Virus record (IMG/VR): IMGVR_UViG_3300048554_000489
Span: 1-21,883 of that record
Length of the DNA: 21,883 nucleotides
Reading direction: 5' to 3' (one strand)
Source: a virus
Under the pieces are notes generated by a model. The model was not told the origin of the DNA. It saw nothing but the letters and a program-made list of their open reading frames with translations, and did no database searches. Position 1 is the first letter of the stretch, and each line of letters starts with the position of its first letter. Below, in pieces: positions 4,445-7,067 of the stretch. A program made the position numbers and the translations under genes.

Positions 4445-4681
4445 TTAATAATTAATTACTATTTCATTATGCAATCTTCTAATTAGTTTATCTAAATCTA
4501 AATCTAAGACATAATCGTAGGCGTCTTTCTTTAATTGTTTAGCATAATCTAATTTAGCGAAAACATCTTTACAATTCTGAAATTCTTTTGAAATTTCTGA
4601 AAAAGATTTGTATTGAAAATTGTCAACAGCGACTTTTTCTTTTGATTTGAGTTCTTGATGTAAGTTATTGTTTTTTTTCAT
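4445..4681 (-). CDS. Hypothetical charged protein, first gene of the leftward cluster
   Basis: The open frame reaches ATG 4723 (92 residues), but I prefer ATG 4681 (78 residues, starting MKKNNNLHQEL). The bases between the two contain the purine-rich stretch AAAAGAAAGAAAAA, which is identical to the leader before the 50-residue gene, and a sigma70-like -10 box at 4729-4734 would start transcription close to 4723. The protein is helical and highly charged (SEISKEFQNCKDVFAKLDYA), ending KLIRRLHNEIVINY. No domain recognised. As the promoter-proximal gene it is probably expressed early or in mid infection, by analogy with T4-like phages; that timing is inference. Confidence 0.62.
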   Translation of the reverse strand: MKKNNNLHQELKSKEKVAVDNFQYKSFSEISKEFQNCKDVFAKLDYAKQLKKDAYDYVLDLDLDKLIRRLHNEIVINY

Positions 4682-4728
4682 AATGATTCGATTTTTCTTT
4701 CTTTTCTTTGTTAATATACTCATATCCT

Positions 4729-4756
4729 ATCATATTTTAGACCCCTTTGCAAGCAA
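4729..4756 (-). promoter_or_regulatory. Probable sigma70-like promoter for the leftward cluster
   Basis: On the minus strand TTGCTT (4756-4751) and TATGAT (4734-4729) are separated by 16 bases. The -10 matches TATAAT at five of six positions and the -35 keeps TTG. The predicted start is near 4722. No other promoter is obvious before the cluster. AT-rich DNA makes such matches common, so this is moderate support. Confidence 0.4.
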
Positions 4757-4811
4757 TTTTTGTCTTTTTTTTAAACTTTCTTCCTTTTAGAATCAATAGG
4801 TTAGAAGAAAA

Positions 4812-4895
4812 GTGAAAAAAACTTGAAAAATCGCAGAAAACTGCGAAAAATGACGAAAATTAACGAAAAACTGCGAAAAATTAGACTAAAAAAAC
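4812..4895 (+). repeat. Phased A-tract array with 10-bp CGAAAA repeats (predicted curved DNA)
   Basis: Runs of four to seven A begin at about 4815, 4826, 4837, 4846, 4856, 4866, 4876 and 4888, close to one helical turn apart. CGAAAA occurs at exactly 4844, 4854, 4864 and 4874. The 15-mer AAAACTGCGAAAAAT is repeated at 4837-4851 and 4867-4881. In-phase A-tracts on one strand are the classic pattern of intrinsically bent DNA. The array lies in the only sizeable divergent gap (4724-4911), directly upstream of the late-promoter box at 4899. A short hairpin (TCGCAG/CTGCGA, 4831-4846) sits inside it. It could be a promoter-activating bend, an origin element or a protein-binding region; the sequence does not decide. 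Confidence 0.6.
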
Positions 4896-4898
4896 TCT

Positions 4899-4906
4899 TA
4901 TAAATA
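4899..4906 (+). promoter_or_regulatory. Late-promoter box at the head of the structural region
   Basis: TATAAATA, the T4 late-promoter consensus, preceded by the phased A-tract array and followed after five bases by ATG 4912. It is the only such box I see before the tightly packed genes from 4912 to 11520, so it probably drives that whole unit. In T4 these boxes are read by RNA polymerase with gp55 and gp33. Confidence 0.6.
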
Positions 4907-4911
4907 GTAAA

Positions 4912-5082
4912 ATGAGGGATTTTTGTTATGATGGCGTGATTCTTTACGAATCAGACAATTTTGCTTGGGACTTGATTTTAGATAGGCACGAATATATTGT
5001 GGATATCGTAAATCCAACGGTTTCCAAGGGAATTCGTCAAAAAATCGTAATAGAAGGTATATCTTTCGGAACTAATTATTAA
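4912..5082 (+). CDS. Hypothetical protein, 56 residues, possibly leaderless
   Basis: An open frame from MRDFCYDGVILYESDNFAWD to EGISFGTNY, ending 13 bases before the next small gene. Codon use and composition look protein-like (alternating hydrophobic and charged residues, few repeats). The ATG lies just five bases after TATAAATA, so either the mRNA is leaderless or translation begins further in, for example at the in-frame GTG 4936 after the AGGGA at about 4915. No recognised family. Position at the head of the late structural unit suggests a small virion or assembly protein, which is only inference. Confidence 0.5.
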   Translation: MRDFCYDGVILYESDNFAWDLILDRHEYIVDIVNPTVSKGIRQKIVIEGISFGTNY

Positions 5083-5870: not shown

Positions 5871-7067
5871 ATGGCAGCGCCACTATGGACAGTTAGTGAT
5901 AATGATGTATTCACTTCTATAAAGAGTGAACAAAAACTCAATATTAACTTACCCATACAAACAGAAAATGCAACAAATGATTTAGAGTTATTTTTAAATA
6001 CTCATAGATCAGCAAGTAGTACAATCTATGTTGATATGGATAATACACTTGCAGGTTTTAATATTAAACTTGCTCAATTATATGGTGTTGATAATCTACT
6101 AGACGCTAATGTTAGTTTATCTTCTATTGCACAACAAATTACAAACAATAGTCCTGGGTTCTTTTTAAACTTATCTGTATTACCTCAAGTATTTTTAGAT
6201 AATAGTAAAGGTTTATTAGATTTAGTACAATCAATACACGGTAGTTATTCTATATTAACAACTGAAGCGGGTACGACAGGTAATAGTGAAAAAACAACTT
6301 GGGTAAATAATAATCTTTCATCATTCGCCCCGACAGGTAGTGTTAATTTTGCTCAAAATTTTGATAAAGGACCTTTCGGTGGTGCGAATAAGATATTAAT
6401 TGATGATAGTCCTACCTATGTTGAACAATTTAAGGCAGCAGGGGGTCAGGCATTCAGATATATCTACACTACTTTAGTATCAGGTAGTTTACCAGAAGGA
6501 TTAAGTCTCGTTAATAATAGAATAGAAGGAACAGCACCTACTGTAAGTTCAGACACAACTTATACATTCACAATAAGACTAAATTATAATTCAGGATATA
6601 TAGACAGAATATTGAAAATATCTGTGCTTGCCAATATAAATAGAAGTATGACATATGACGCTTCTTCAACAAACAATAGTAAAAGCACTAAGGTCTGGAA
6701 AGACTTAAATCTGAATTTTACTAAAAATCCGGTGACAAATGATATTGTAAAGATAGATGGTGTTAATGCTGTGAAAAGAAGTGTTAGAAATTTAATCAAC
6801 ACAAATCATTATGAAAGATTTTTTCACCCTGAATTAGGATCAGGTATAAGAGAATTGTTATTCGAACCTATGACAGCTCTTACAGAAATATACCTAGCAA
6901 AAAAGATTGAAGAAGTATTAATTAATTATGAACCAAGAGTAAGATTAATTCAAGTTCTTGTCAGAGGAAATGCTGATCAGAACCATTACAATATAATGTT
7001 AGAATTTTATGTAGTTAATCATCCTGAACCGGTACAGATTGATACATTTTTAGAAAGATTAAGATAA
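5871..7067 (+). CDS. 25: Baseplate wedge gp25 fused to Ig-like and HAD phosphatase-like domains
   Basis: A 398-residue protein. The C-terminal part (about 275-398) is the T4 gp25 / GpW-gp25 domain: WKDLNLNFTKNP, VKRSVRNLI, ERFFHPELGSGIRELLFEP and a closing strand. gp25 joins the wedge inner ring and starts sheath assembly; T4 gp25 is only about 132 residues. The N-terminus has PLWTV and a later SGSLPEGLSL...NRIEGTAP (204-222), the pattern of a He_PIG-type Ig domain. Between them, residues 51-198 look like a HAD hydrolase of the 5'(3')-deoxyribonucleotidase kind: DMDNTL (D55, D57, T59), ILTTEAG (T130/T131), EKTTW (K141) and LIDDSP (D178, D179). All four HAD motifs are intact. The gene has a strong AGGAGG, and its stop directly abuts the gp6 start. 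The frame is continuous, so no frameshift explains the fusion. Confidence 0.88.
   Translation: MAAPLWTVSDNDVFTSIKSEQKLNINLPIQTENATNDLELFLNTHRSASSTIYVDMDNTLAGFNIKLAQLYGVDNLLDANVSLSSIAQQITNNSPGFFLNLSVLPQVFLDNSKGLLDLVQSIHGSYSILTTEAGTTGNSEKTTWVNNNLSSFAPTGSVNFAQNFDKGPFGGANKILIDDSPTYVEQFKAAGGQAFRYIYTTLVSGSLPEGLSLVNNRIEGTAPTVSSDTTYTFTIRLNYNSGYIDRILKISVLANINRSMTYDASSTNNSKSTKVWKDLNLNFTKNPVTNDIVKIDGVNAVKRSVRNLINTNHYERFFHPELGSGIRELLFEPMTALTEIYLAKKIEEVLINYEPRVRLIQVLVRGNADQNHYNIMLEFYVVNHPEPVQIDTFLERLR

Follow-up and report, generated by a model that had tools for sequence, protein, structure and literature searches.

The window, the whole stretch of DNA analysed here (21,883 nucleotides), is a 21.9-kb piece of a marine T4-like phage genome and encodes a baseplate protein gp6 with 52-54% identity to gp6 of the Pelagibacter phages HTVC008M and Mosig and of the Methylophilales phage Melnitz. 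A leftward small-gene cluster closes at ~4681-4723 and a rightward structural region begins at 4912. The divergent gap and the two genes beside it carry the following features.

4445..4681, minus strand: first of the small genes in the leftward cluster, 78 aa counted from the conserved start
4724..4729, minus strand: -10 hexamer TAGGAT of a predicted leftward sigma70-type early promoter (TATAAT, TAAAAT or TAAGAT in relatives)
4747..4752, minus strand: -35 hexamer TTGCAA of the same promoter (TTGTTT, TTGAAT or TTGAAA in relatives)
4757..4788, unstranded: near-phased T-tracts from the -35 hexamer to the IHF match, with phase taken relative to the IHF match
4791..4803, plus strand: IHF consensus match, AATCAATAGGTTA to the consensus WATCAANNNNTTR, centred ~-79 from the predicted leftward start
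4815..4880, plus strand: A-tract array (seven tracts, 9.96-bp step) that forms the core of the predicted static bend
4831..4846, unstranded: palindrome TCGCAG-AAAA-CTGCGA within the array (1 found vs 0.1 expected)
4888..4894, plus strand: eighth A-tract, off the array phase
4899..4906, plus strand: T4-type late promoter box TATAAATA, an exact consensus match, kept in the ten closest gap sequences
4912..5082, plus strand: 56-aa late ORF, leaderless by prediction, its ATG coinciding with the +1 predicted from the late box

The methionine of the 78-aa form is the earliest start among homologues of the first leftward gene in many relatives, and a longer frame (to 4723) would start upstream of the predicted transcript start. 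Homologues of the 56-aa late ORF are 43-98% identical and start directly 3' of the late box. A PHROGs search assigned no function to the leftward small genes (including 4445..4681) or to the 56-aa ORF, and an Rfam search of the whole window returned no match. The gap and its late ORF recur in eleven further IMG/VR contigs, and those long enough also carry the same leftward gene. A palindrome scan added five sequences at the syntenic place (L157, L163, L165, L168 and L171).

Two observations concern the surroundings of the gap. The ORF at 5871-7067 joins a 5'-nucleotidase-like (HAD) domain and baseplate gp25 in one frame, and holds an internal late box (6635-6642) with an in-frame ATG at 6648. 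Judging from this layout, gp25 may also be produced alone from the internal box, apparently leaderless. Near the equivalent gap of the array-less relatives L025, L026, L035 and L047 (HTVC008M) there are GTTC-N7-GTTC repeats, which have the form of the alphaproteobacterial LexA (SOS) box.

Curvature of the A-tract array

A first, sequence-only reading of this DNA placed CGAAAA repeats at 4844, 4854, 4864 and 4874, which is correct, and counted eight A-tracts phased at the helical repeat. Seven are indeed in phase (4815-4880, 9.96 bp), with centres at 4818, 4828, 4838.5, 4848, 4857.5, 4868 and 4878 and residuals of at most 0.46 bp from the common step, but the eighth (4888-4894) is centred 13 bp past the array and falls out of phase. 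A further tract at 4808-4811 sits 8.5 bp before the first in-phase one. With A/T runs at the helical period, 4815-4880 has the make-up of A-tract curved DNA.

The strong static bend predicted by that reading is borne out by calculation. The De Santis model gives a z of 7.5 (176 degrees over 84 steps, against a window mean of 33 and sd of 19) and the Bolshoy model a z of 7.1, both with wedge tables following the published models; a parameter-free A-tract vector, independent of such tables, reaches 6.9 at the array vs a window mean of 0.8. By all three measures the array region is the most curved DNA of the window, and the curvature maximum (4808-4892) is wider than the strict array. None of 5000 dinucleotide shuffles of the gap attained the observed curvature on any of the three measures. 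The maxima of 100 shuffled whole windows stayed at or below 149 degrees (De Santis), 152 degrees (Bolshoy) and 5.5 (A-tract vector). Among runs of phased A4+ tracts in three complete relatives (430 kb), there is one of five tracts and none longer. In nearly all relatives, the curved peak ranks first or near the top within its locus. Curvature no higher than background, or loss of the 10-bp period in close relatives, had been named as grounds for giving up the bend; the array is curved above background and its period is kept in relatives.

A leftward promoter and an IHF match in helical phase

The same gap holds two elements that escaped the sequence-only reading, a leftward sigma70-type promoter and the IHF match. 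The -35 and -10 hexamers are 17 bp apart in all 15 array-bearing sequences, within the 16-18 bp of sigma70 promoters. Across the window and its relatives, the hexamers agree with the consensus at 7 to 11 of 12 positions. The window, with a poor 8/12, reads TTGCAA-17-TAGGAT and is absent from the list of a simple promoter scan; relatives read TTGTTT-17-TATAAT or near variants. The gap of HTVC008M has TTGACT-17-TAGGAT without an array, and its curvature is at most 97 degrees. Stronger curvature goes with weaker promoter hexamers among the 15 sequences (Spearman -0.53, p 0.04, a post hoc comparison), as would be expected if the bend compensates for a weak promoter.

The IHF match is kept in 15/15 array-bearing sequences, the window included, in the forms AATCAATAGGTTA, AATCAATAACTTA, TATCAAGGGTTTA, AATCAATAACTTG and AATCAATGACTTG. 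Variation is confined to the degenerate positions of the consensus (W, N, R), all six of which vary, and the changes at W and R stay among the allowed bases. The match is also present in L328-L330, L340, L342, L349 and L350. IHF-type matches (WATCAR) show no enrichment across the window as a whole (4 found vs 5.3 expected), so the weight rests on the conservation of the match at 4791-4803. Pelagibacterales genomes encode HU as well as IHF-alpha-like and IHF-beta-like proteins, the latter two scoring below curated family cut-offs. Pelagibacterales are the host group of the isolates HTVC008M and Mosig, and the host of the window phage is presumptive.

The distance from the -35 hexamer to the IHF match varies among relatives. 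It is 41 bp in the window, L002, L009 and L163, 51 or 52 bp in the next group, and 21 bp in L165/L168. Later relatives, found through the leftward gene, have 21 bp again, 74 and 84 bp, and 72 bp at a second tandem promoter. The seven values (21, 41, 51, 52, 72, 74, 84) fall on one helical face, with a V-test p of ~0.0004-0.0005 for sequences that are related (L157, L163 and L171 nearly identical) and thus not fully independent. All lie within 1.25 bp of one phase (10.5-bp helix; leave-one-out). The three later values alone give p 0.11 in a test without a preset direction, and they count because they lie at the phase predicted from the first four (21, 41, 51, 52). The other intervals behave similarly. 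The distance from the IHF match to the array is phase-locked at 29, 39, 50 or 51 bp, and the T-tracts on the -35 side keep a phase of 8.2-9.1 (mod 10.4) to the IHF match in sequences having them. Gain or loss of 10-bp units could preserve such phase passively, at least for the array-side distances. This explanation is weaker for the interval between the -35 hexamer and the IHF match, because its spacers are unalignable between groups.

Comparison of relatives indicates which elements travel together. In L157/L163/L171 and L165/L168, the late box is set apart from the region by a conserved leftward gene of 84 aa, yet the IHF match and the leftward promoter are still accompanied by the array (reduced in L165/L168). 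The deeper relatives L340/L342/L349 are without the CGAAAA array, and their IHF match is still in phase with the leftward promoter. These two layouts point to the early promoter plus IHF match as the conserved unit, which would make the A-tract array an elaboration added in some lineages. L329/L330 carry tandem leftward promoters, each with its own in-phase IHF match (21 and 72 bp from the -35 hexamer), and the matches precede the leftward gene by ~84 and 268 bases. From their sequences, a modular duplication of promoter and match is possible.

Such pairs also occur elsewhere. When TATAAT-type promoters were scanned for a following IHF match, 26 places were returned, seven of them in the array phage's own family at a distance of 21. 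Outside the family, a same-orientation match occurs in the same phase in 7/9 sequence families, which were grouped by eye (p 0.003), and loci chosen for other reasons have the same phase preference (8/14, p 0.017). Sites in flipped orientation lean weakly to the same phase (p 0.05), which makes the claim on orientation soft. In HTVC008M two pairs are in phase (distances 31 and 41), and its most curved locus has one of the two. That unrelated phages favour one and the same IHF-promoter phase is suggestive of a general rule. The pairing was rejected as universal among pelagimyophages, with two pairs in HTVC008M and no same-orientation pairs in the Mosig and Melnitz genomes. Separately, many unrelated phage contigs, including some with high GC, share the motif AATCAATRACTTA (IMG/VR loci L087-L155); 36/71 of its matches have AC at the two free bases, and several lie upstream of strong sigma70 promoters. 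The 18-mer IHF scan was discarded as a family marker, having matched many unrelated phages and some coding sequence.

Alternative and proposed roles of the bent region

A rival reading starts from the palindrome inside the array. On the minus strand the palindrome reads TCGCAG-TTTT-CTGCGA-TTTTT, an intrinsic-terminator-like hairpin that scores as a terminator and lies directly past the stop of a leftward gene in L163. The array also gives a tandem-repeat signal at periods 10, 20 and 30. The hairpin might act as a leftward intrinsic terminator or insulator, and the array might be a by-product of 10-bp repeat slippage whose curvature has no role. The palindrome is kept in most array-bearing relatives, but L010 lacks it and retains the phased tracts, for which reason it was rejected as an essential part. 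To the right of the hairpin the window lacks a leftward gene, and the phase is kept also between the -35 hexamer and the IHF match, outside the CGAAAA repeat. We consider this explanation unlikely. The hairpin itself may be a remnant of a terminator role for the 84-aa gene.

The sequence-only reading tied the bend mainly to the rightward late promoter. Its layout is accurate, as the array lies in the divergent gap and TATAAATA at 4899-4906 follows four bases past the last A-tract. The box is identical to the T4 late consensus, and the relative Mosig is annotated with gp55, gp33 and gp45. The bend might help a polymerase dependent on these three proteins at the rightward box, alone or additionally, together with IHF. 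The distance from array to box is in phase where the two are adjacent (58, 67, 68 or 69 bp, Rayleigh p 0.02), and both elements are kept in the ten closest gap sequences. However, the array, IHF match and leftward promoter persist together without an adjacent late box in L157/L163/L165/L168/L171. Other late boxes of the window have no comparable array, and the array was accordingly rejected as a general late-promoter feature. T4 late promoters are moreover described as a bare -10 box activated with the sliding clamp (PMC1524935). The canonical form is not known to have an upstream curved element, whereas the box in the window adjoins one that probably belongs to the divergent promoter. A promoter-activity element stays plausible, but the comparison does not favour the late promoter as its main beneficiary, and we regard a bend serving that promoter as quite improbable.

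The late boxes have a spacing of their own. The box lies exactly 13 nt from an ATG in 9/19 cases in HTVC008M, 7/33 in Mosig and 3/23 in Melnitz-1 (genome records L315-L322 and L389-L394), and in 3/6 in the window, against 0.05-0.2 per genome in shuffles. In the window this spacing is seen at 4899-4914, 6635-6650 and the 18812 region (minus strand). Given T4-type initiation, this spacing makes the ATG the first transcribed base, and a leader may be missing from many late mRNAs.

A replication origin or other nucleoprotein assembly site in place of a promoter element is very unlikely: bent DNA with IHF is found at several origins and packaging sites, and each contig (17-38 kb) has one such array, but GC skew keeps its sign in the rightward genes either side of the gap, with no origin-like switch, and the fixed phase to the -35 hexamer and similar IHF-promoter spacing in unrelated phages favour transcription.

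We suggest that the gap probably acts on the leftward early operon as a bent upstream activating region assisted by IHF, similar to the "IB" element of IS5. Host IHF or an IHF-like DNABII protein would bind 4791-4803 and bend the DNA at ~-79 relative to the leftward start. The phased A/T-tracts flanking the site, chiefly 4815-4880, would add a static bend whose helical phase is constant with respect to both IHF site and -35 hexamer. The upstream DNA could then fold back to RNA polymerase at the weak sigma70 promoter and raise early output. IHF binding, early firing of the promoter and activation by the bend are steps that we infer. The array lies at ~-90 to -174, a long distance for direct contact by the alpha subunit of polymerase, and this counts against the proposal. 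An additional role of the bend at the late promoter is possible.

The proposed activating region has a close counterpart in IS5 IB, which lies upstream of E. coli glpFK. A weak sigma70 promoter there is activated by a permanent A-tract bend combined with an IHF site; both are required, and activation is lost with a 5-bp insertion and kept with a 10-bp one (PMC2753651). The phage gap likewise has multiple A-tracts and an IHF match upstream of a weak sigma70 promoter, in a fixed phase that is comparative and not experimental. IS5 IB is part of a transposon, beginning at ~-117 with its IHF site at ~-216, whereas the gap belongs to a lytic marine phage with the predicted match at ~-79. Phage lambda pL has an IHF site upstream of its -35 hexamer and is also a leftward early phage promoter. 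Lambda is not known to have a comparable A-tract array, however, and homology is not implied. Another T4-like parallel is the A-rich UP-like element at -40 to -44 of T4 early promoters, which likewise places A/T-tracts ahead of an early sigma70 promoter, but neither an IHF site nor a seven-tract phased array is described for these promoters (PMC1524935).

In a broader and rather doubtful extension, host IHF would serve phages widely as an architectural activator at strong early sigma70 promoters, with a single orientation and a single helical face. The A-tract array added in the window lineage would then form one bent nucleoprotein knot for the leftward early and rightward late promoters, possibly serving an early-to-late switch. 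The parts of the proposed activating region are known. Their combination in a lytic marine T4-like phage, with phase kept over two to eight helical turns, appears to be new, and searches of open-access papers on pelagiphage promoters and on early promoters with IHF turned up no report of it. Regulation in phages of SAR11-type ocean bacteria is almost unknown, and a pelagimyophage survey found middle and late promoters unpredictable by cyanophage methods (PMC7029224). A bent element at fixed phase to an early promoter provides a concrete handle on how phages recruit host architecture proteins.
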